Source: a virus. From it: a stretch of 25,786 nucleotides of DNA. The notes under the pieces were generated by a model. The model worked only from the letters and a program-made list of their open reading frames with translations, made no database searches and was not told where the DNA came from. This document shows, in pieces, positions 10,314-25,683 of this stretch. Where the stretch lies: the IMG/VR virus record IMGVR_UViG_3300031997_000057, positions 1 to 25,786 of that record. One strand, 5' to 3'. A program made the translations under genes and the position numbers. The number at the start of each line of letters is the position of its first letter. Position 1 is the first letter of the stretch.

Positions 10314-12638
10314 ATGCTTAAAGTTAAAGGTGGATGTTTTGGATGTCCTTACGAGGGTAATACTCTTGTGCCGCCAGATGGAAAATCGATTGCAGAAGCA
10401 AAGCTCATCGTCGTTGGAATAAATCCCGGAGAGATAGAAGAGAGAATGCTTTTACCTTTTGTTGGAAGGTCCGGTCAACTTCTTTGGCGGGAATTGGCGG
10501 CATTAGGAATAGATAGGGATGATTGTTGGGTTACTAATATTTGTAAATGTCGGCCTCCCAGAAAAGAAGACGGGACCGGAGATGAACAGCCGAGTACAGC
10601 AGCAAAAAAACACTGTGCTAAACAATGGAGTGAGGAATGGGACGGCATGAAGGGGAAGATTTTTCTTCTTCTTGGGACTCTTCCGACTCGTCATTTTCTG
10701 AAGAGGGCGGGGGTGTCTATGAGAGGGAGCGTGTACGAAAAAGATGGGAACAAGTTCTTACCGACATGGCATCCGTCTTTTTTACTAAGGTCGGAAAACG
10801 AACATAATATAATCACATGGAGGAAAGATTTGCGGCTGCTTCCCTCTTTGCTGGTTCAGGCGCGGGAAAGAAAAAAGGTAGTGTGGAGTGTCGCTAAGAC
10901 TCCAACGGAAGTAAAAGATACGGTTGACTATTTTATCGGGGTGAATAAATTTGCCGTTGATATTGAGACCACGACTTTACACCCCTACGAGCCGGGGGCC
11001 GATATAATAAGTATTTCTATGTCCGATGGAATTGTATCTAAGGTCATAGATTGTCAGACTATGCCCGTTGCTGGAGAATTAAAGCGTCTGCTTGAATCCG
11101 AGGCTGGGAAAATAGTCCAGAATGCCAAGTTTGAATTGGTGTGGTTGCAGGCTAGATACGGTATAATTATTAAAAATATAGTGTTTGACCCTTCTTCTGC
11201 ACAGTATTTATTGGATGAAGGGACGGGGACCAGTGTTGCTCTGAAGCAGATGGTTTGGAAGTACCTTCCTGATTTTGGGGGGTACGAAGCCGAGGTGGAT
11301 AGGTCCAATATGGCTGCGTTGGAAAAAACTAAACTTTATGAGTACAACGCTACTGATGCATATGTAACTTACAAGATAGCGGAGATACTTGCTCCCCGGA
11401 TAGAAGCTGAAGGATTTTCCTATTTGCTCTATGAAGTCATTCTTCCGGCCTCTTATCCATTGGCGGAAATGGAAGCTTATGGACTTGCTGTGGATATAGA
11501 AACGGTCAGGAAGAGACGAGCCGAGTTGGAGATAAGAGTTGAAGAGTTGGAAAAAGAGATACTTGCCCTTCCGTCAATCAGGGGTATGGAAGATTTTAAG
11601 ATAACTTCGGTTCATGATTTACGGAAACTGTTCTATGACAAGTTGAAGTTTGCTCCGCTAGGAAAATCAAAGAAGACTGGTTCTCCTACCATGACTAAAG
11701 AAGTTTTGGGAGGGTTTGAGGAGGGGGGTAGCCTTGAAGCAAAAATGATACAGGAGTATAAGCAGACCCGAAAAGTTCTAAAGACTTACTATGAGAACTA
11801 TGACCAGTTGGTAGGGACCGATGGTAAAATTCATACGAACTATAACATGCTTGTCGCCCGAGGTGGCAGGCTTACGTCTGGAAATCCGAATTTACAAAAT
11901 GTTCCTAAAGATGTTCGGGATATTTTTGTATCTTCTTTTGGTGAGGATGGGATTTTGGTGCAGATGGATTTTAAGCATATTGAGATGCGGGTTATGGCCT
12001 GTGAGTCGGATGATGAGGGGTTGTTGAGGATTTTTAGGGCCGGAGGAGACCCACACGCAATGATTGCCGCAGAAATATTGGGTGTCCCGATAGAGACTAT
12101 TACCAAAGAGCAGCGGCAGGCAGCTAAGGCGGTTAATTTCGGGTTGCTTTACGGAATGCAGCCTAGTACTCTGGCGCAGAGAGAAAAAATTCCCATAGAA
12201 AGAGCCGAGCAGTTCTACGCCGGATTTTTTAGGAAGTATCCGGGGGTCCGGGCTTGGCATAGGCAGCAGGAACAAATAGTCGAGTCTGGCTATGTTGTAA
12301 AATCTTTTTTTGGAAGGCGGAGGGATTTGTCTTCCTTTACTGGAGGAGACAAAATAAAACGCGCTTATAATTTTCCAATTCAGTCTTGTGGTTCTGATAT
12401 TAATTTGTATACAATGGGATTAGTCTATGATATGATTAGGTCATTCAATCTTAGAGCAAAGTTGGTAGCCACGGTTCATGACTCGCTATTGGTTGATTGC
12501 CCAATCAACGAAGTGGAGACCATCAGGAAAATCCTTGAAGATGTCACGGCGGAGCTACCGTCTATTTTTTCTTGGATGAAATGCCCGATGAATATCGACC
12601 TTCAAGTCGGTAAAAATTGGAGACAGGCATCGGAATAA
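10314..12638 (+). CDS. polA: DNA polymerase A with N-terminal family-4 uracil-DNA glycosylase
   Basis: The 774-residue fusion has three parts. Residues 1-185 form a family-4 UDG: C8, C11, C79 (KCRPP) and C101 fit Fe-S ligands, with GINPGEIEE (35-43), PFVGRSGQLL (48-57) and HPSFLLR (153-159). Residues 211-360 are a DnaQ-like 3'-5' exonuclease: D216-x-E218 and Y344-x3-D348. The exo II Asp appears as E274 in NAKFE. Residues 370-774 are the polymerase: motif A D552-x3-I-E557-x-R559, motif B R601/K605/F609/Y613, and motif C H722-D723. Serine follows H-D where E. coli PolA has Glu. F609 corresponds to the Phe762 position. A UDG-PolA fusion has been reported in SPO1-like phages (recalled). No clear SD precedes ATG 10314. 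Confidence 0.95.
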   Translation: MLKVKGGCFGCPYEGNTLVPPDGKSIAEAKLIVVGINPGEIEERMLLPFVGRSGQLLWRELAALGIDRDDCWVTNICKCRPPRKEDGTGDEQPSTAAKKHCAKQWSEEWDGMKGKIFLLLGTLPTRHFLKRAGVSMRGSVYEKDGNKFLPTWHPSFLLRSENEHNIITWRKDLRLLPSLLVQARERKKVVWSVAKTPTEVKDTVDYFIGVNKFAVDIETTTLHPYEPGADIISISMSDGIVSKVIDCQTMPVAGELKRLLESEAGKIVQNAKFELVWLQARYGIIIKNIVFDPSSAQYLLDEGTGTSVALKQMVWKYLPDFGGYEAEVDRSNMAALEKTKLYEYNATDAYVTYKIAEILAPRIEAEGFSYLLYEVILPASYPLAEMEAYGLAVDIETVRKRRAELEIRVEELEKEILALPSIRGMEDFKITSVHDLRKLFYDKLKFAPLGKSKKTGSPTMTKEVLGGFEEGGSLEAKMIQEYKQTRKVLKTYYENYDQLVGTDGKIHTNYNMLVARGGRLTSGNPNLQNVPKDVRDIFVSSFGEDGILVQMDFKHIEMRVMACESDDEGLLRIFRAGGDPHAMIAAEILGVPIETITKEQRQAAKAVNFGLLYGMQPSTLAQREKIPIERAEQFYAGFFRKYPGVRAWHRQQEQIVESGYVVKSFFGRRRDLSSFTGGDKIKRAYNFPIQSCGSDINLYTMGLVYDMIRSFNLRAKLVATVHDSLLVDCPINEVETIRKILEDVTAELPSIFSWMKCPMNIDLQVGKNWRQASE

Positions 12639-16588: not shown

Positions 16589-17287
16589 ATGAAAACCACA
16601 ACTCTCTGGAAGTCAATGCAATCGGGCCTGCGCTCCGGCGTGGGCGACATGACGTGGAAGGTCGGCAAGTGGGCGAAGCACAAGGGCAAACTCTCGATGT
16701 GCACGTCCGGTTTCCACGCCAGCGTCCGGGCCATCGACGCGATGCGGTACGTGGACTGCGAAATCCTCGCTCTCGTCGAGGTTCGCGGGAAGCATCTAAA
16801 ACAGGACGACAAGCAATGCTGGTCGGAGATGAGGGTTGTCAAGGCTTACCGATGGGAGAAGCCTGACAGCGTGGCGATGGCGATATACTCCGCCGAGTTG
16901 GTTATCGGGGAATACGAGAAGCGATACCCGGACGACAAGCGGCCCCGGCGGGCGATAGAAGCGGCGAAGGCGTGGCTGGAAAACCCAACGGAAGAAAATC
17001 GTGCCGCCTATGCCGCCTCTGCCGCCTCTGCCGCCTATGCCGCCTATGCCGCCAATGCCGCCAAGGCCGCCGCCTATGCCGCCTATGCCGCCGCCAATGC
17101 CGCCTATGCCGCCGCCTATGCCGCCAATGCCGCCGCCTATGCCGCCGATGCCGCCAATGCCGCCGCCAATGCCGCCTATGCCGCCTATGCCGCCTATGCC
17201 GCCGATGCCGCCGCCTCTGCCGCCGTTCTCGATAAGGTCGAGGCGTGGATAATGGAACGCATTGAGACGCTCAAGGAGGTCGCATGA
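16589..17287 (+). CDS. Alanine-repeat protein with a conserved N-terminal domain (232 aa)
   Basis: Residues 1-110 form a globular domain (KLSMCTSGFHAS, CEILALVEVRGKHL, KAYRWEKPDSVAMAIY). A linker, RRAIEAAKAWLENP, precedes about 75 residues of Ala-Ala-x repeats with x = Tyr, Ser, Asn, Asp or Lys, then a charged helix at the C-terminus. I recall this architecture, with a GFHA motif and Ala repeats, from phage and bacterial proteins, but no biochemical role. GAGGAGGG precedes the ATG. The repeat DNA is made of GCC-rich units and lies in the GC-rich island, consistent with transfer and repeat expansion. Confidence 0.85.
   Translation: MKTTTLWKSMQSGLRSGVGDMTWKVGKWAKHKGKLSMCTSGFHASVRAIDAMRYVDCEILALVEVRGKHLKQDDKQCWSEMRVVKAYRWEKPDSVAMAIYSAELVIGEYEKRYPDDKRPRRAIEAAKAWLENPTEENRAAYAASAASAAYAAYAANAAKAAAYAAYAAANAAYAAAYAANAAAYAADAANAAANAAYAAYAAYAADAAASAAVLDKVEAWIMERIETLKEVA
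17001..17225 (+). repeat. GCC-rich tandem repeat tract
   Basis: The tract is built from units such as GCCGCCTAT and GCCGCCAAT, with occasional extra GCC triplets, and encodes the Ala-Ala-x repeats. It is open in all three forward frames because the unit contains no stop codons. Variable length among relatives through slippage or recombination would be expected. Confidence 0.9.
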
Positions 17288-18140: not shown

Positions 18141-18472
18141 GAAAGATTAAAAGTAATGTTCCGTCCATTGGTTTTGGGGTATTGACGGTGGTACTGGCGG
18201 GCGTTCTTTGGATTCCTAAGTTGGGGCATAGGGAGACTACTCCAGCTGTGACCTATAAGGCTATGGAACGTCAACCTGTGGTTACGGAGGGGTTTCAGGA
18301 TAAGACCAAGGCAAGGCCGCGTCCGATTCCAGAAAAGGTAATTCCGGAAGCGGCTGCTCCAACGGAAGAAAAACAGCCGTCTCTGTACTCAAAGGTGAAG
18401 TCTGAGGTGAAGGATTGGGTTCCTGTTTTGTCTCTTGGGATGGCTTGGTTCTTACGGAAGAAGCGGCAATAA
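18137..18472 (+). CDS. Small membrane protein, probable (111 aa)
   Basis: A basic N-terminus (MRKIKSNV) precedes a hydrophobic segment at residues 10-27 (SIGFGVLTVVLAGVLWIP), probably a transmembrane helix or uncleaved signal anchor. A Pro- and Lys-rich linker follows, then a second hydrophobic segment WVPVLSLGMAWFL before a RKKRQ end. Two membrane passes with a polar loop are plausible. Overlap as ATGA with the previous gene and AGAGAG upstream support the start. Function is unknown. Confidence 0.7.
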   Translation: MRKIKSNVPSIGFGVLTVVLAGVLWIPKLGHRETTPAVTYKAMERQPVVTEGFQDKTKARPRPIPEKVIPEAAAPTEEKQPSLYSKVKSEVKDWVPVLSLGMAWFLRKKRQ

Positions 18473-18473
18473 T

Positions 18474-19559
18474 ATGGATGGTAATTTAAGAATTTTAGTT
18501 TTTTCTGACGCACATATTCATCCTTTTCGGATGTTTGCAGAGCATTCTTCAGGAGAAAATTCAAGAAGGGCTGAGATACTATCGAGAGTCGATAGTATTA
18601 TCAGTTTGACGCAAGATGGAACTTACGATGCTGTTTTATTTGGTGGGGATTTTTATCATGAGCGGGGGAAAATAGATACGGTGTCTTTGGTTTATTCCAA
18701 AGAGATTATGAAGAAGCTTCATCCAGCTACTAAATTTATAGCCTGTTCAGGAACTCATGATTTGGCCCGTGATGGAAAATCAGCACTGGCTGCATTCGTA
18801 GAAGAAAATGCTCCAAAGAGATTTTTTATAGACGAGCCTTGTCTGTTGGGGCGGGGTTCTACGGTGGTGGCTGTTGTGGCTGTTCCGGACCCTGTTATAT
18901 ACGAGGAACATGAGGTAAGAATAAGAGAAGCACTTGGTCAGGTTAAGGTTGATTTTCCTAAAATATTGTTAAGTCATGGGTTTGTAGTTGGGTCTAGGGA
19001 GTTTGAGGCAGAGCCTTGGATGTCAAAGGGAGTAAGTCAGTCGTTTTTGAGGGAAAATTTTATTTTGTCGATACTGGGGCATCTTCATCAGCCTATTTTA
19101 TCTCAGTCAGATAGGGGGATTATCCTAATTCCGGGAGCTGTTATTCCTCATAATTTTGGGGATGATTGTGGGGGTGGGTCTTACTATGATGTGGAAGTAT
19201 CCGGAAAAGAGGTACTTGTCAGGCGGCATGCCTTTGCTCATCCTCAGTTTTTGACGGTGGACGATACATTTCACTCCTTTGACAGGGAGGATTACTATCG
19301 GGTCAGAACAAGCGATAAGAACTATGCTTTGCCGGAGGGGATTCGTGGATTTTCCCAATATACTGAGCAAGCAGGTGCGGAGAGTGAGAGGTCTGAGCTA
19401 CGTCTTGCAGATAGCCCGGAGACACTTGTTGAGAAGTATGCTCGGAGTAAGCCTGTCTCGATTACAGAGGTAGGAAAATCCATTGTTCGTGGTCTGGCTT
19501 TGTCAGATAACAATCTACAGGGGGCTATAGAGGAGATTATGAGTAGGGTGGAGTTATGA
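18474..19559 (+). CDS. sbcD: SbcD/Mre11-like (gp47-type) nuclease subunit
   Basis: The 361-residue metallophosphoesterase has the ordered motifs D12-x-H14 (FSDAHIH), GGD (57-59), G93-T-H95-D96 (usually GNHD), H168 in LLSHGF and GHLH (202-205). Together they form the two-metal site of the Mre11/SbcD/gp47 family, which trims DNA ends with the SbcC/gp46 ATPase. The Asn-to-Thr change at position 94 is unusual, because that Asn normally contacts metal. ATG 18474 is used because it falls right after the previous stop. The stop overlaps sbcC as ATGA. Confidence 0.93.
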   Translation: MDGNLRILVFSDAHIHPFRMFAEHSSGENSRRAEILSRVDSIISLTQDGTYDAVLFGGDFYHERGKIDTVSLVYSKEIMKKLHPATKFIACSGTHDLARDGKSALAAFVEENAPKRFFIDEPCLLGRGSTVVAVVAVPDPVIYEEHEVRIREALGQVKVDFPKILLSHGFVVGSREFEAEPWMSKGVSQSFLRENFILSILGHLHQPILSQSDRGIILIPGAVIPHNFGDDCGGGSYYDVEVSGKEVLVRRHAFAHPQFLTVDDTFHSFDREDYYRVRTSDKNYALPEGIRGFSQYTEQAGAESERSELRLADSPETLVEKYARSKPVSITEVGKSIVRGLALSDNNLQGAIEEIMSRVEL

Positions 19560-21442
19560 AAATAGAGTTCTTACGGGTTGTAGTTCGGGACTTTTTGGCG
19601 ATTGGGGCTGCTGATTTTCCTATTTACTCTTCTGGGATGCACGGGGTGGTTGGGGAGGTAGAGGGTGGGTTTTCGGACAGCAACGGGGCGGGCAAATCGT
19701 CTCTGTTTGAAGCCTTAGTTTGGGGGTTATATGGGAAAACTCTGCGTGGAGTTACGGGGTCTTCGGTTATTCGGAATGGAGCCGATAGTTGCAAAGTTAC
19801 TGTGTTTTTTAAAAAAGGTGCTGTTGAGTATTGTATTGTCCGTATACGAACCGGAAGCTCTGGAAGTGTTGAGTTCTCATGTGAAGAGACAAGGCTTTCC
19901 GAGCCTCATACAAAAGATACGGACAAGAAAATATCGGATGTGTTGGGTATCCCCTTTGTGGTTTTTCAGAATTCAGTAGTTCATGGGCAGGGACTTCCCT
20001 ATAGATTCATAGAAGCTACGGATGCAGAAAAAAAAGAGGTTATGGAAAGCTTGCTGTCACTTGGATGGTTGGAGCAGGCTAGAGCTAGAGTTTCGTCACT
20101 TAAAAAAAATTACGATGTACTGGTCACAAACTTGGAGGTGGAGTTACGCGTAAAAACGGCTGCTCAGTGTGATGGGTGGTCAAGGCTTGGGGCTATAGAC
20201 AGGAAACTGGTAGACCTAGCTGAGGATTTAAAAAAATTGCAGGAAGGATTTTCCATACAGGAACTTCGTAAGAACATAGAGGATAAAAGAACAGCAGAGG
20301 CTATTATTGTGGCTGAAGGATATGAGGCTAAGAGAATGGTTTCTGAAGAAGATTTAAATATTCAGGAAGCCATGAATAAAATAGCTGATATGCGGGTATC
20401 TATTGGTAAACTTGGGTCTGAGTGTAGTTCAATCGAAGAAATAATTTCTAGGATAGATTCTAGGATAGGTTTATTTCAGAGGCCGAAAAAAGAATCGTCA
20501 TTCTGTCCTACCTGCGGTCAGGATATAAACTCTGAGCAAGTTAAAATTATTATTGGGGGTCTTGTTCAAGAGAGAGAAAATAATCTTAAGGATTTGGATT
20601 CTAGTCGTGGTCAAATATGGACAATACAGACACTATTGAATCAGGCTGAGACGGAAAAACAGGATTTTGTTACTAGAAAGAAGGATTGTCTTGAAAGAGT
20701 TCAAGAGCTAGAAGTAGAGAGGTTAGGAATTTCAAATTACCTTACAAACGCGGAGAGGTTTTCTTCTGATTATCAGAACAAGGCAGGAAGGAATTCCGCA
20801 GAAAAGGAACTTTTGGAGAGCGACAAAGCTGAGTTAGAAGCGCGGTTGTCGATTATCTCTGGAGAATTGCAGACAATAGATGAGTCGAGAGACTTTTGCG
20901 ATAGTATCAGGGATGTCCTTATTTTTTGGGAGCATGGGTTTTCTGACCAAGGTATAAAATCTTTGGCAATAGACAATATCATGCCGTTCTTGAACGAGGC
21001 CATGGAAAAGTATCTTGGTATACTTGCAGACAATGATATCGGAGTATCTTTTAGGAGTCAAAGTGAGACGGCGCGTGGTGGGGTCCGGGACAAGATATCT
21101 GCGAGTGTTACGATGGAGGGGGCTACGTCTTATGTACAAGCGTCTGGTGGAGAAAAACGCAGAGTCGATGTAGCTGTGCTTCTAGCCCTGCATGATTTGG
21201 TAGCTTGGCAGAATGGGGTGGATACGAATATTCAGGTGTTTGACGAGGTGTTTGAAAATCTTGATGAGTCCGGGACAGAGAGGTTGATGTCCCTTCTTTC
21301 GGAGAGGGCAAAGGATAGGTCTATTTATGTAATTTCTCATGATTCGGACTTGCTTTGTGATATTAGTAGTACGCTCAAAGTTAGAAAATCACCGAGCGGA
21401 GTTAGTTCTGTGGATACCTCTGAGTACCACAGCAATATGTGA
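19556..21442 (+). CDS. sbcC: SbcC/Rad50-like (gp46-type) ATPase subunit
   Basis: This 628-residue SMC-like ATPase has Walker A SNGAGKSS (42-49) followed by LFEALVWGLYGKT. Its coiled coil carries a zinc hook, C317-P-T-C320. The ABC signature is SGGEKRR (530-536), Walker B is QVFDEVFENLD (560-570), and H595 lies in the ISHDSD switch. All motifs are intact. With SbcD it would process DNA ends for recombination. In T4 the homologous pair is essential for recombination-dependent replication. It is shorter than bacterial SbcC (about 1,000 residues) and near T4 gp46 in size. It overlaps sbcD by four bases. Confidence 0.95.
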   Translation: MKIEFLRVVVRDFLAIGAADFPIYSSGMHGVVGEVEGGFSDSNGAGKSSLFEALVWGLYGKTLRGVTGSSVIRNGADSCKVTVFFKKGAVEYCIVRIRTGSSGSVEFSCEETRLSEPHTKDTDKKISDVLGIPFVVFQNSVVHGQGLPYRFIEATDAEKKEVMESLLSLGWLEQARARVSSLKKNYDVLVTNLEVELRVKTAAQCDGWSRLGAIDRKLVDLAEDLKKLQEGFSIQELRKNIEDKRTAEAIIVAEGYEAKRMVSEEDLNIQEAMNKIADMRVSIGKLGSECSSIEEIISRIDSRIGLFQRPKKESSFCPTCGQDINSEQVKIIIGGLVQERENNLKDLDSSRGQIWTIQTLLNQAETEKQDFVTRKKDCLERVQELEVERLGISNYLTNAERFSSDYQNKAGRNSAEKELLESDKAELEARLSIISGELQTIDESRDFCDSIRDVLIFWEHGFSDQGIKSLAIDNIMPFLNEAMEKYLGILADNDIGVSFRSQSETARGGVRDKISASVTMEGATSYVQASGGEKRRVDVAVLLALHDLVAWQNGVDTNIQVFDEVFENLDESGTERLMSLLSERAKDRSIYVISHDSDLLCDISSTLKVRKSPSGVSSVDTSEYHSNM

Positions 21443-21484: not shown

Positions 21485-22048
21485 ATGGACCCCCAAACAG
21501 GACCATCTGAATCGATGAAACAATCTCTTGAGTTGGTAGAAATATTAGCAGAGAATTATTGTACTGATTTTTCAGAGAATAGTTGTTTGCAGTTTGTTAA
21601 TGCTTATGAGGCGGCATTGACCTTGCAGGTCCGGTCTCCCTTGGATAAAAAAACAGAATTGCTTCGTTCTGCTTGGCTAGATATAGCTCGATGGACGGTT
21701 GTGCGGAATATAACAAAACTTCGTATTTTTAGAACTCATATGATGGGGTTAGGAAGGCTATTTTCAAAACCGTCTTATAATCCTTGGTGCAATTTTTGTC
21801 TTACATTTGGTGGGGGGTGTGGTACTTGTCCGCTTGTTGTGGGTGGTCTTATCAGTAAAGATGTTTGTAGTGTTTGGTTTGCGGAGAACTCTTTTTTGCG
21901 GTGTAGTAGTGAGGGTGGTCTGACGTATGGTTTGGCTGCTGCATTTAAGGGGAAGGACTTTGCCAGCATAAAAGGTATTGTTAAGGCAGCTATGTCTGAT
22001 TCTGGGGAACTTGTAAAGTTTTGGGATAAGGTAGGAAAAAATGACTGA
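21485..22048 (+). CDS. Cysteine-rich, probably zinc-binding hypothetical protein (187 aa)
   Basis: A helical N-terminal half precedes C102-x2-C105-x6-C112-x2-C115 (CNFCLTFGGGCGTC), with further Cys at 128 and 140. The CxxC...CxxCP pattern is common in uncharacterised phage proteins and probably binds one or two zincs. It differs from a canonical RING, which needs a longer loop and a His. It has its own copy of the phage-type promoter and CGGAGG before the ATG. It lies just upstream of the ubiquitin-like cassette, so a supporting role is possible but unproven. Confidence 0.72.
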   Translation: MDPQTGPSESMKQSLELVEILAENYCTDFSENSCLQFVNAYEAALTLQVRSPLDKKTELLRSAWLDIARWTVVRNITKLRIFRTHMMGLGRLFSKPSYNPWCNFCLTFGGGCGTCPLVVGGLISKDVCSVWFAENSFLRCSSEGGLTYGLAAAFKGKDFASIKGIVKAAMSDSGELVKFWDKVGKND

Positions 22049-22334
22049 TAAATGGTCGGCTTATAGAAGAGTTTGTTATATCTATGCTTTGTATGAAGAA
22101 GTCCGGACGCAGGTTGATGCCGATGTTGAAAAATCCATTGTTTGTGTTTTGGCTGGTATGAGTGTTGTTCTAAACAAATGGAGCGAGGATGTGGGTATTC
22201 CTGTGGAGCAGGAAGTAAAAAGCATCATTGAAGAAATAACTTTAGCTGGGTTCTCGACGGATGTATCTTTGCTGGCAAGGAAAATCCACATGGGTATTGT
22301 CTCTTTGATAAATTTCTCTGAAACAATAAACTGA
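22041..22334 (+). CDS. Small helical hypothetical protein (97 aa)
   Basis: This 97-residue, all-helical protein has no motif that I recognise (RRVCYIYALYEEVRTQ, EKSIVCVLAGMSVVLNKW, LLARKIHMGIVSLINF). It overlaps the previous gene by eight bases, and TAGGAAAA precedes the start. The ubiquitin-like cassette begins under a separate promoter just after its stop. The only GGAAAATC word between 20.3 kb and the window end lies near its 3' end. Confidence 0.68.
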   Translation: MTDKWSAYRRVCYIYALYEEVRTQVDADVEKSIVCVLAGMSVVLNKWSEDVGIPVEQEVKSIIEEITLAGFSTDVSLLARKIHMGIVSLINFSETIN

Positions 22335-22355
22335 AAGATTTTGTTATTCTATAAT
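22332..22355 (+). promoter_or_regulatory. Phage-type promoter motif TGAAR-N13-TATAATACT, copy D (drives UbL cassette)
   Basis: TGAAA at 22332-22336 and TATAAT at 22350-22355 (then ACT) are 13 bp apart. The sequence between begins GATTTT, as in copy B. The predicted transcript starts near 22362, followed by a strong SD (AAAGGAG) and the UbL ATG at 22380. It gives the conjugation cassette its own expression control. Confidence 0.7.
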
Positions 22356-22379
22356 ACTATAGGGTGAAAGGAGACTAAC

Positions 22380-22673
22380 ATGACAGAACAGGACGGTCTC
22401 GTAAGAGACGGCGGTAGCGCGGTTGCGGAAGAGGCGTATGAGGATGCACTTCCAGTTGGTCAGATTCGGGTTGCTGAGCTTGGTCGTGCGCCAAAGTCCG
22501 TTTCCGTTGGTCCTGATGAAGAACTGACGATTGGGGAGCTTGTGGCTGAAAACCATATTTCTTCCCCTGATTTTCATTTCTTTATCAATGGTCGGCAGGC
22601 TGGGGGTATTGATGCCCTCGTCCGGGCTGGTGACTCCGTAGTTGCTATCAAGCGTATCAATGCCGGGGTCTGA
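22380..22673 (+). CDS. Ubiquitin-like / MoaD-ThiS-type beta-grasp protein (97 aa)
   Basis: After a 25-residue acidic, flexible N-terminus, residues 27-94 have beta-grasp order. Strand QIRVAEL and strand SVSVGPD come first, then helix TIGELVAEN and strand HFFINGRQ. The turn LVRAGDSV and final strand VAIKRIN complete the fold, as in ThiS, MoaD and bacterial UbLs. The C-terminus is N-A-G-V rather than a free Gly-Gly, so one residue may be trimmed, perhaps by the JAB protease encoded three genes on. The E2-like, E1-like and JAB genes immediately follow, which argues for protein conjugation rather than sulfur transfer (inference). SD AAAGGAG supports the start. Confidence 0.72.
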   Translation: MTEQDGLVRDGGSAVAEEAYEDALPVGQIRVAELGRAPKSVSVGPDEELTIGELVAENHISSPDFHFFINGRQAGGIDALVRAGDSVVAIKRINAGV

Positions 22674-22687
22674 AAGTGGAGAATCCT

Positions 22688-24106
22688 ATGGGTGCGTGGA
22701 TTAATGTCAGTGTTCTTCGGAACGGGGCAGACCCCCGTAGTGTTGTCACGGCTCATGATGTTTTGACCACGCTTGGTGAGGGAATGCGGGGTATTTCCTC
22801 CATTCCCTCTACGGATTCTATGTACTTTACAATATTCGATGGGGACTTAGATAGATTTACGAGGATTTGTTCTCGTTATGGGTTCACGGTTGTTTCCGTT
22901 GGTCCGGATGGAGGGTTGGGGCATGCTCGGGTGGACCCCGCTTTTCAGGAGAATGAAAGGCGACTCAGAGAGTTTCAAGATGGACTTGAGATGGCTCGCA
23001 GAAGGGTTAGTAGGGTAGGTGTAATTCCTCCGGGGGCTGTCGATAACGCGCCCGCGCCCGGAGATATCGTAATGAACGGAGACAATTTGCGGGTTGCTCC
23101 TCCGGCTCCGCAAACCAGTCGTCTTAATAAACTTATCGGACTTACGCAAGAAAAATCTAAAATAGCCGAGAAGAAAATAAAAGACCTTTTGGATGAAGTT
23201 AAGGTTGATGTTACAGTCGTTGAAAAAATGACTGAAGTCATGCTTGCGTGTGGTAATGATATCAGACAAAAAGTTAGGATAGCTCTTGATAATTCTGTTT
23301 CTCAATATGAGCAGGTTATGGCTAATATGAGAAAGTCAATCGGGCCGTATCAGGTTCAGAAGTTTCTTTACTCTAAGCTGACGGATATCACTGATGCGGC
23401 AAATACTCCAAAAGAAAAAGAGCAGAGAGAAAAAGTGTTCGATGCTCTCTCTGGAATTTTTGGTAAGAATAAAAAGGACTACGAAGAGGACTTTGCGAAA
23501 GGTGTCGCTTCTATCCTCAGTCAGATAAAAAATTCGGATATCGAAAAACAGATGGAGATTAATATTAAGAATGTTGTGACTCTTGGGGCGCAAGTCGAAA
23601 CGAATCGTAGGTTGCTTGACGCGTCTCTTTCGGATAGAAGAGAGGCTCTTAAAAAAACGAATGCTGACCACATTGACAGGATTGTAAAATATCCTTTTGT
23701 TCGTGGTGTCCGGATGTATGGAAATAATATCGTTGTTACTTATGATGCAGTGACTCTTCGGCATGATGGGAAACTGTGGCCTCTTGGGACTTATACCGCC
23801 ACAATTGATATTGGTCATAGTTCGATTAAACTCACTGCCGATGAGTGGGGGTTGAATCAGTCTTATCAGGGTCCGCATATCACAAGCGGTGGTTCTTCAA
23901 TTTGTTGGGGAAATTTGAGCGAGGGTGTGAGACAACTGATGGCTGATTGGAATTGGAGTTTTCTTGTTCATGTTATCTGGAATTTTTTGAATGTCTACAA
24001 TCCTGCGGACAGATTCTGTGATTTGGAACATTTATTTGTTACAGCTGTCAAGAGAAAACCACTCCCTATCCCAGAACAGGCTGTGGTTGCGGGAGAAAGG
24101 AAGTAA
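22688..24106 (+). CDS. E2-like (UBC-fold) protein with long N-terminal extension (472 aa)
   Basis: The C-terminal residues 330-455 look like an E2 domain. Strands GVRMYGNNIVVTYD and GTYTATIDIG are followed by P396-H397-I, then C406 in SSICWGN. This parallels the E2 signature (HPH...ICLG) in which the Cys carries the ubiquitin thioester. A helix (VRQLMADWNWSFLVHV) follows. Residues 1-90 form a separate small alpha/beta domain and 150-330 are helical, both unrecognised. ATG 22688 has GTGGAG upstream and is preferred over the GTG at 22676. The gene lies between UbL and E1-like genes. Assignment is by motif and context; a structure prediction would test it. Confidence 0.68.
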   Translation: MGAWINVSVLRNGADPRSVVTAHDVLTTLGEGMRGISSIPSTDSMYFTIFDGDLDRFTRICSRYGFTVVSVGPDGGLGHARVDPAFQENERRLREFQDGLEMARRRVSRVGVIPPGAVDNAPAPGDIVMNGDNLRVAPPAPQTSRLNKLIGLTQEKSKIAEKKIKDLLDEVKVDVTVVEKMTEVMLACGNDIRQKVRIALDNSVSQYEQVMANMRKSIGPYQVQKFLYSKLTDITDAANTPKEKEQREKVFDALSGIFGKNKKDYEEDFAKGVASILSQIKNSDIEKQMEINIKNVVTLGAQVETNRRLLDASLSDRREALKKTNADHIDRIVKYPFVRGVRMYGNNIVVTYDAVTLRHDGKLWPLGTYTATIDIGHSSIKLTADEWGLNQSYQGPHITSGGSSICWGNLSEGVRQLMADWNWSFLVHVIWNFLNVYNPADRFCDLEHLFVTAVKRKPLPIPEQAVVAGERK

Positions 24107-24110
24107 AGAT

Positions 24111-24812
24111 ATGAGTAACCAGTCAAATTTTTTGAGGCAGCTTGATTTCTTTGACCCTGAAAAAGATGGCAATGTCGGGGTTGAGATTATTGGAGCGGGT
24201 GGCATTGGCTCTTTTGTTGCTCTTGCTCTTGCTAAACTGGGTATAAATAAAATGAGAGTTTGGGATGGAGATAAGGTAGAAAATCACAATCTACCGAATC
24301 AGCTTCATGCGATTGCTTCAGTCGGGGTTCCAAAAGCAGAGAGTATCGCCAAGGTGTGTCATGACCTTGGCGAAGTCGATATCGAAGTCAAGAACGAATT
24401 CTGGACTCCGGAAAAAGCGGCAGGTCTTTCTGGAATAGTTATCTCTGCTGTTGATAGTATGGGTAGGAATGCTAATCGGGATACGGATGGTCGGAAAGAA
24501 ATTTGGGAAGCCGTCAAGATGAATACGAATGTTCGTCTCTTCATTGACTGCCGTATTGGTGGTGAGTTTATTAGGATTTTGTCGGTTCGTCCAATCAATG
24601 ATTATATGAAGTATGGGTGGTATGAGAAAAATCTCTTTGAAGACAAAGATGCTGCGCCTCTTCCCTGCACTGCCAAGTCAATCATCGATGTTGGGTTCAT
24701 GGTTGCGGCAATCGTAACTCGGCTTGTTCGTGGATATCTTAAAAACGGTGAAGTAATGCATGACGTTATTGCAAGTATGACTGACCTGACTCTTCACCGG
24801 ATGGAGGTTTAA
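24111..24812 (+). CDS. E1-like / ThiF-family adenylating enzyme (233 aa)
   Basis: This Rossmann-type E1/ThiF domain has G28-x-G30-x2-G33 (IIGAGGIGS) for nucleotide binding. WDGDKVENHNLPNQLH follows, containing the Asp and the N-L-P-N-Q segment typical of the family. D-C-R-I-G-G-E lies later, and Cys186 in PLPCTAKSI is at the position of the catalytic Cys of UbL-activating ThiF proteins. The CxxC zinc pairs of MoeB/ThiF are absent. It should adenylate the UbL C-terminus and pass it as a thioester toward the E2-like protein. GAAAGGAAG precedes ATG 24111, four bases after the E2-like stop. Confidence 0.88.
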   Translation: MSNQSNFLRQLDFFDPEKDGNVGVEIIGAGGIGSFVALALAKLGINKMRVWDGDKVENHNLPNQLHAIASVGVPKAESIAKVCHDLGEVDIEVKNEFWTPEKAAGLSGIVISAVDSMGRNANRDTDGRKEIWEAVKMNTNVRLFIDCRIGGEFIRILSVRPINDYMKYGWYEKNLFEDKDAAPLPCTAKSIIDVGFMVAAIVTRLVRGYLKNGEVMHDVIASMTDLTLHRMEV

Positions 24813-24813
24813 T

Positions 24814-25683
24814 ATGAAAGAAAATATTATGCCCGTTGGGTCCGGAGGTTGGAAGGTCGTTCTTCCTCAAAGGGTTCGTGACAAGATGCTGTATATTGCT
24901 CGTCTTGCCTCGCCTTCGGAAGTTCAGATGCTCGGAGAAGTTTCCGTATCTGGAAAGACTCTGTTGGTTGAAGACCTTCATGTAATCAAGCAGAGAGTTA
25001 CGGGGGCTAGTGCTACATTCGACATGCCTGCTCTGGCTCAATTTGTCGAGACTCATCCTCATCCCGAAAAAATTAGGTGTTGGATTCATAGTCATGTCAA
25101 TATGGGTTGCTTCTGGTCCGGTACGGATACAGGAACGATTGAAGACCTTGCTCCGCAGGGTTGGCTACTCTCAATCGTCCTGTGTTTGAATGGGTCCATG
25201 AAGGCTCGTATGGATGTTAGTTTTGAGACGGTCCAGAAAAAGATTTCCGAAAAGGCAGATAGTCAGGGTGAGGGAGATTGGGCTGTTCTTATGCTCCCTA
25301 AGATTTTGACATGGGACGATATCGAAATAGAGATTTCTGATTCTTTGAGTGACGTAGAGAAAGAAACCCTGAAGAAGTCGGTTGATGAAAATGTCGCCGT
25401 TGCAGGTGTTTGTGACGAGTTGGATTTGCAGACATATATACCCGATTTTGATTATGACGATGTGGATGAAAGGCAACCAGTATTTTCTCCTGTTAGGTAT
25501 AGGTCTTTTCAGAGTTATCCTAAGAATCCTCCGAGGGGGGAAAACGAATTTAGGTGTGCTACTTGTGCAAATGATAATATCGGAATTGTTTGCCTAAAGG
25601 GGCTTGACAGGGTTCCCGAGTTTTATCTGAATCGGGAAGATGTACTTTGTACAAGTTACAATCCAGTAAAGTCTGTGTCATGA
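24814..25683 (+). CDS. JAB/JAMM metalloprotease, deubiquitinase-like (289 aa)
   Basis: The catalytic JAMM motif is complete: H92-S-H94-x7-S102-x2-D105 (HSHVNMGCFWSGTD), with E36 as the probable upstream acidic residue. It binds one zinc and cleaves isopeptide or UbL C-terminal bonds. Beyond the JAB domain (about 1-140) there are 150 extra residues. They end in a cysteine cluster (RCATC, VCLKG, VLCTS) that may bind a second zinc and substrate. It follows the E1-like gene by one base after its stop, with GGAGG upstream. By family, roles would be trimming the UbL precursor or removing it from targets. Confidence 0.9.
   Translation: MKENIMPVGSGGWKVVLPQRVRDKMLYIARLASPSEVQMLGEVSVSGKTLLVEDLHVIKQRVTGASATFDMPALAQFVETHPHPEKIRCWIHSHVNMGCFWSGTDTGTIEDLAPQGWLLSIVLCLNGSMKARMDVSFETVQKKISEKADSQGEGDWAVLMLPKILTWDDIEIEISDSLSDVEKETLKKSVDENVAVAGVCDELDLQTYIPDFDYDDVDERQPVFSPVRYRSFQSYPKNPPRGENEFRCATCANDNIGIVCLKGLDRVPEFYLNREDVLCTSYNPVKSVS

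Follow-up and report, generated by a model that had tools for sequence, protein, structure and literature searches.

Can a phage carry a complete and reversible protein-modification pathway of the ubiquitin type? The question is raised by IMG/VR virus record IMGVR_UViG_3300031997_000057, a linear sequence of 25,786 bp, possibly a fragment, which was analysed over its whole length and is called the window here. An earlier note, made from the letters alone, had claimed four consecutive genes for a ubiquitin-like protein (UbL), an E2-like conjugating protein, an E1-like activating enzyme and a JAB/JAMM isopeptidase. All four genes are present where they had been placed, at 22380-25683 on the plus strand in the order UbL, E2-like, E1-like and JAB, with a single orientation and tight junctions (Table 1). 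The record ends ~100 bp past the JAB gene, and the sequence downstream of the cassette lies outside it. Based on the conservation of its catalytic residues, its synteny in five phage contigs and the presence of all four genes on ~30 viral contigs, we conclude that the window cassette very probably represents a phage-encoded pathway of ubiquitin-like conjugation and deconjugation, as had been proposed.

The four components and their active sites

In the AlphaFold2 (AF2) model of the UbL, an N-terminal segment of ~27 residues has low confidence and is followed by a core with the strand and helix order of a beta-grasp fold and a predicted local distance difference test (pLDDT) score of 93-95. Foldseek related this model to MoaD, Caldiarchaeum ubiquitin, Urm1 and ubiquitin with a probability of 1.00, at expectation (E) values of only ~2e-3, and a profile built from 29 UbLs reached SAMP2 as the nearest solved UbL at 2e-11. 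The window protein therefore has the beta-grasp fold and C-terminal Gly that characterize the modifier of a conjugation cassette. The other UbLs of the E1 clade to which the window belongs (see below) finish AG or AG-C, and the tails outside this clade are mostly GG, GA or AG, often with 1-2 residues more. Because the UbL of most relatives stops at AG or GG, or runs only a few residues past it, JAB is predicted to trim a single residue (Val) off the window UbL. Tandem UbL domains were seen in phage genes at loci L008 (6239-6652) and L024 (8169-8642); both copies in L008 finish KGG, resembling a short polyubiquitin.

The nearest solved structure to the phage E1 profile is UBA5. Residues G29, G31, D53, D55, N61, Q65, K76 and D116 are invariant in the alignment, and the ATP-binding residues are accompanied by a Cys that is likewise invariant across relatives, which bears out the assignment of a ThiF/E1 enzyme with a Cys at the catalytic position. 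For the phage JAB profile, CSN5 and Rpn11 are the nearest solved structures. The JAMM motif of the window protein is intact, with all of the metal ligands that had been claimed for it (E36, H92, H94, S102 and D105), and the motif HSHx7SxxD was found in 72 of 79 distinct JAB open reading frames (ORFs), the remaining 7 being split ORFs. A Cys-rich C-terminal unit, of which the JABs of L009 and L013 hold several copies, is a possible zinc module. The residue numbers given in the earlier note for the active-site cysteines, Cys186 of the E1 (counted from 24111) and Cys406 of the E2 (counted from 22688), are correct.

The E2-like protein is modelled by AF2 (GTG numbering) as an N-terminal alpha/beta domain (~8-75), a long helical segment (~147-337) and a C-terminal UBC-like domain. 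The PHI...ICWG motif that had been noticed in the last of these was located there, and across an alignment of 28 divergent sequences its Cys and the Gly two residues later are, with Met1, the only invariant positions. P400, H401 and G406 are kept in at least 90% (26-28 sequences), giving HPH..G..C[WLF]G as the family-wide motif. A profile of the domain matched UBE2L3 (E 6e-4), with HPHvsesGkaCw placed on HPNIdeKGqvCl through the catalytic Cys (Cys86), and the weaker matches below it were mostly E2s as well. A catalytic Cys in an HPx..C context is thus recognized by the sequence profile and by the invariant Cys and Gly. The C-terminal UBC fold that had been anticipated agrees with this profile and with the predicted order of helices and strands, although it was not recovered by a Foldseek search with the full model.

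Table 1. Positions of the cassette, its active sites and its upstream context in the window
Feature	Position	Strand	Basis or detail
SbcD- and SbcC-like genes, upstream context	18435..21442	+	phrog_100, phrog_77
g1 (187 aa, Cys-rich) and g2 (97 aa)	21485..22334	+	equivalent position in window clade
TATAATACTATAGGG promoter-like motif and AGGAG Shine-Dalgarno before UbL	22350..22374	+	consensus only
UbL, 97 aa, C-terminus ...VVAIKRINAGV	22380..22673	+	AF2, Foldseek, family profile, alignment
UbL C-terminal Ala-Gly, then Val	22662..22670	+	UbL tails, alignment
E2-like protein	22688 (ATG) or 22676 (GTG)..24106	+	ATG has the better Shine-Dalgarno
UBC-like E2 domain	23636..24103	+	profile to UBE2L3 6e-4; pLDDT 86-97 across most of domain
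E2 active site P400-H401-I..G..C410-W-G412 (GTG numbering)	23873..23911	+	Cys codon 23903-23905
E1-like ThiF-family adenylating enzyme	24111..24812	+	PF00899 1.4e-16; profile to UBA5 1.5e-16
E1 catalytic-position Cys in PCTAKS	24666..24668	+	C186 from 24111, C187 from 24108; invariant in two alignments
JAB/JAMM isopeptidase, 289 aa	24814..25683	+	family profile: CSN5 1.2e-6, Rpn11 4e-4
JAMM motif HSHVNMGCFWSGTD	25087..25128	+	H92-S-H94, S102, D105; partner Glu36 at 24919-24921; invariant in alignment
Cys-rich C-terminal JAB unit (CATC...C...C)	25555..25650	+	sequence

The four components are present, are conserved together and keep their catalytic residues, and from their families we infer the following chemistry. 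JAB would cut the UbL precursor behind its C-terminal Gly (RINAG|V), and the E1 would adenylate this Gly with ATP and then hold the UbL as a thioester on Cys186. The UbL would pass to Cys406 of the E2, which would attach it to phage or host proteins through their amines, most likely those of lysines, and JAB would finally take it off again. Since no E3 gene is recognisable, the N-terminal domain and helical extension of the E2 would probably select the substrate.

Several observations weigh against such a pathway. The resemblance of the E2 to solved E2s by sequence is modest; the window protein has PH in place of the HPH of its relatives, and its Cys is preceded by one additional residue. The Foldseek search of the full 476-aa model against the PDB, which was dominated by helices, returned mostly helical proteins at E >0.01 and no UBC fold. 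Additionally, the window UbL finishes AG rather than GG, and neither an E3 nor a substrate was identified. In the cultured jumbo phage described below, a JAB was not detected by a search that had no positive control in that genome. Alternatively, the UbL could act in the manner of ThiS/MoaD/TtuB, as a thiocarboxylate that donates sulphur for the thiolation of tRNA or cofactors, with the E1 as its activator. The UbL and E1 also resemble ThiS/MoaD and ThiF/MoeB, and archaeal SAMPs take part in both conjugation and sulphur transfer. However, no rhodanese, thiolase or cofactor gene recurs beside the cassettes in our comparison of neighbours, and the UbL and E1 are accompanied by a JAMM protease and by an E2 whose Cys is invariant, which contradict a role in sulphur transfer only, the outcome that the earlier note had named as fatal to its proposal. 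We therefore regard a sulphur-carrier pathway as highly improbable.

Recurrence in phages and the crAss-like arm

Single-sequence scans with the window E1, E2 and JAB retrieved almost no relatives (one locus), and alignments were therefore used as queries. No match was obtained by tblastn with the window E2 against phages or with the L016 E1 against plasmids. An alignment of eight phage E1 sequences found 80 loci in a scan of viral contigs. According to our own hidden Markov models, a JAB ORF lies beside the E1 in nearly all of 88 loci with an E1 match, and all four genes occur together on ~30 distinct viral contigs, most commonly in the order UbL-E2-JAB-E1. The exact order of the window, g1-UbL-E2-E1-JAB with the upstream genes, was found on five phage contigs (L009-L013), among which L010/L011 and L012/L013 are near copies. 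The combination of this order with a long-extension E2, to which the earlier note had drawn attention, is thus not unique to the window. Identity to the window proteins is 60% for the L009 E1, 36-40% for the JABs of L009-L013 and 28-31% for the E2-like proteins of L009, L011 and L012. Because the cassette recurs independently across viral loci, a chance origin is excluded.

In a quick E1 tree, whose deep branches are unsure, the window, L009, L011 and L012 form one clade with full support in the Shimodaira-Hasegawa-like approximate likelihood ratio test (SH-aLRT), 40 crAss-type E1s fall in another, and bacterial and archaeal sequences from metagenome-assembled genomes (MAGs) are interspersed with the remaining phage E1s. 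Many cassette contigs are tailed phages according to terminase matches. Related cassettes are also carried by bacterial and archaeal MAG contigs within L091-L122, some of which, such as an 8 kb Lokiarchaeota contig, may be mis-binned or proviral. One Myxococcales bin holds several copies (L109, L111 and L115), and L091 (Uhrbacteria) has three tandem E2-like genes, two of them without the Cys motif. The cultured jumbo phage Xanthomonas PhiXhv-15 (L089, 3817-7696) encodes a UbL ending GG, an E1 and an 892-aa E2-like protein (HPHM...CLGS; 8.4e-7). A gene for a ClpC-like AAA+ unfoldase with an N-terminal CxxC segment stands directly downstream of the cassette at L016 (8263-10794) and L017 (7962-10481), which come from two related large phages; these were the only two of 20 records matched by PF10431 (Clp).

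A more divergent arm of this family was found in crAss-like phages. In crAss001, which has the gene order gp79-gp78-gp77-gp76, the JAB (gp77) and the E1 (gp76) are homologues of those in the window, while gp78 and gp79, which lie upstream of them, were unassigned. Profile-profile comparison with the phage families gave E 1.8e-5 for gp78 against the E2s, with Y.HSH...C.G falling on HPH...C.G, and E 6.3e-5 for gp79 against the UbLs, with SG falling on GG, whereas the best values among negative-control comparisons were 0.035 for E2 and 0.054 for UbL. The gp78 and gp79 families recur in 44 loci. In view of these profile links and of the order UbL-E2-JAB-E1, which is shared with most phage cassettes, the four crAss genes probably represent the same system as the window, and cultured crAss001 and Flavobacterium phages would probably encode a divergent version of the cassette. 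Our confidence is lower than for the window because the gp78 or gp79 profile alone found no relevant match among solved structures in the PDB. The crAss001 system differs in that SG in the UbL is followed by a long C-terminal extension, in the E2-like motif and in its separate E1 clade. In L006 (4411-5614) an HNH gene interrupts the crAss UbL gene (gp79), and JAB genes are split at or beside HSH...SxxD by insertions in L002 (4635-6927), L070 (4720-6462), L073 (4143-6497) and L080 (4215-6495); these insertions are likely homing elements.

Phage cassettes of this kind were not found described in the open-access literature, and subscription papers or preprints could contain such a description. 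The gp76-gp79 genes are unmentioned in the main text of the key crAss papers, and only RadC-type JABs are among the JABs discussed in the polyvalent-protein paper.

Genomic context and possible roles

The window gene set is one of replication and recombination. Family scans identified a primase, a ResIII-type helicase, a DnaB-like helicase, a gp32-like single-stranded DNA-binding protein, RecA/UvsX and RusA, and with a polymerase and SbcCD among the neighbours the placement inside a replication region holds. Two genes upstream of the UbL, g1 and g2, are possible accessory genes of the cassette. The polymerase gene at 10314-12638 encodes a family A enzyme with an N-terminal uracil-DNA glycosylase (UDG) domain (PF03167, residues 28-164), and a DUF7666 gene lies at 16589-17287, together with an Imm5-like match below threshold. 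In L009 (243-3176) the SbcC-like ORF has 977 aa compared with ~628 and is interrupted at its Walker A motif (GAGK-CLPEDSPVLMSDG...) by what looks like an intein.

The earlier note had also given the cassette a promoter of its own. A perfect TATAAT is found at 22350, without a recognisable -35 element, and sigma70-like sites in the window are at chance level (8 observed, 7.5 expected). The sequence TATAATACT occurs four times, always on the plus strand (2823, 10295, 21458 and 22350) and each time 14-30 bp upstream of an ORF start, compared with 0.125 expected from simple shuffles. It is possibly a phage promoter element, and it somewhat resembles the T4 late promoter. A separate cassette promoter is therefore plausible but weakly supported. 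Two nearly identical copies of one stretch, at ~190-250 and ~1140-1190, contain TTGACA and TATACAAT-like elements (ACAAAAAGAAAAGACTTGACAA.CATACAATTATGCTA) and look like a duplicated promoter-like sequence.

This context bears on what the cassette might modify. It is possible, and we suggest it tentatively, that the UbL regulates proteins with which the phage replicates, recombines or repairs its own DNA, a role that ubiquitin and SUMO have in eukaryotes. Both arms place the cassette among primase, helicase, polymerase, UDG, nuclease and SbcCD genes; UDG genes adjoin it in most crAss-type loci, and one lies near it in L008. However, many phage genes lie in replication blocks, and a conserved partner gene sought beside cassettes other than those of the crAss arm and the window clade was not found. 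Targets in the replication and repair programme are accordingly proposed with low confidence, from gene context only. Counter-defence, which the earlier note had offered as an example, or host takeover, in which host defence or metabolic proteins would be inactivated by attachment of the UbL, appears doubtful: the cassette recurs in many phages, and UbL-like conjugation is reported to control CBASS (PMC10097602), a precedent for such a role, but neither an anti-defence neighbour nor a target was found. These two roles and a defence against other phages, considered below, are each compatible with the conjugation mechanism. A broader proposal, which we consider unlikely, is that reversible UbL modification is a common and ancient part of many tailed-phage infection programmes, including those of gut Crassvirales, and is directed at replication and repair proteins, with some phages chaining tandem UbLs and others coupling the tag to a ClpC-like unfoldase (L016 and L017) in the manner of the ubiquitin-proteasome system.

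Among prokaryotes, most known cases of ubiquitin-like conjugation come from cellular defence loci (Bil and CBASS) and plasmid loci (PRTRC). A four-part phage cassette with its own E2 family would put this chemistry on the side of the virus and would enlarge the pool of possible sources for the spread of E2 and UbL variants. It would also provide a candidate function for genes now annotated as 'thiamine biosynthesis protein' or 'hypothetical' in crAss001, DAC15, the Flavobacterium Fpv phages and Xanthomonas PhiXhv-15.

Comparison with known systems

The PRTRC plasmid operon (Iyer 2006 operon type 6d; TIGR03735-03738) likewise joins UbL, E2, JAB and E1 in a single operon, and its order C-(F)-B-A-ThiF corresponds to the UbL-E2-JAB-E1 of most phage cassettes. 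Since a PRTRC_B search over 337 genomes of one class matched one genome, real operons taken from plasmids were used for comparison. PRTRC models scored far below their curated cut-offs in the window (ThiF 31 bits, cut-off 144.75; A 11.7, cut-off 101.8), with no match for B and C, and ParB and PRTRC E and F were absent from its gene list and from the family scans when these were compared with the real operons. The relationship that the earlier note had expected from PRTRC profiles was recovered in part: the E1 (7e-21) and JAB (7e-7) are distant kin, whereas the UbL is unrelated (0.16) and the E2 match (4.5e-4) is confined to 13 columns around the active-site G.iCwGN. The phage His lies upstream of the Cys (HPH..C), unlike the downstream His of PRTRC (THPN), and the window order is UbL-E2-E1-JAB. 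A diverged PRTRC cassette acquired by phages could explain the shared order, the E1 and JAB kinship and the E2 motif, but is quite improbable given the missing matches to PRTRC_B, C, E, F and ParB. On these comparisons the phage cassette is not a member of PRTRC; it would work like such systems and probably shares part of their ancestry.

The order UbL-E2-JAB-E1 is also that of BilABCD (PMC11354881), which has four matching components. Most phage relatives keep this A-B-C-D order, and a few, such as L008 and L024, carry tandem UbLs resembling the two UbL domains of BilA; the window has a single UbL domain, its E1 before its JAB, and a phage-borne position in a replication region. A Bil-like defence, in which the UbL would be attached to structural proteins of rival phages (superinfection exclusion) or of prophages, would accommodate these likenesses. 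We nevertheless judge it distinctly unlikely, as the cassettes recur in replication regions and not in accessory defence islands, those of the crAss arm form one conserved clade, and the PADLOC models matched were limited to generic E1-E2 and JAB.

Lambda-type tail genes I and K also place a phage UbL beside a JAB peptidase (Iyer 2006), but they do so in the tail region and without an E1 or E2. Type II CBASS shares E1, E2 and JAB chemistry through Cap2 and Cap3. There, Cap2 is an E1-E2 fusion without a separate UbL gene, the cyclase being conjugated, whereas the window has four separate genes including a UbL, and no CD-NTase/cyclase was found in its gene list or by family scans. The archaeal SAMP2/UbaA/JAMM1 system provides the nearest solved UbL by profile, and SAMP systems are not known to have an E2. 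The E2 family of the phage cassette matched no Pfam or NCBIfam model in the family-model search.

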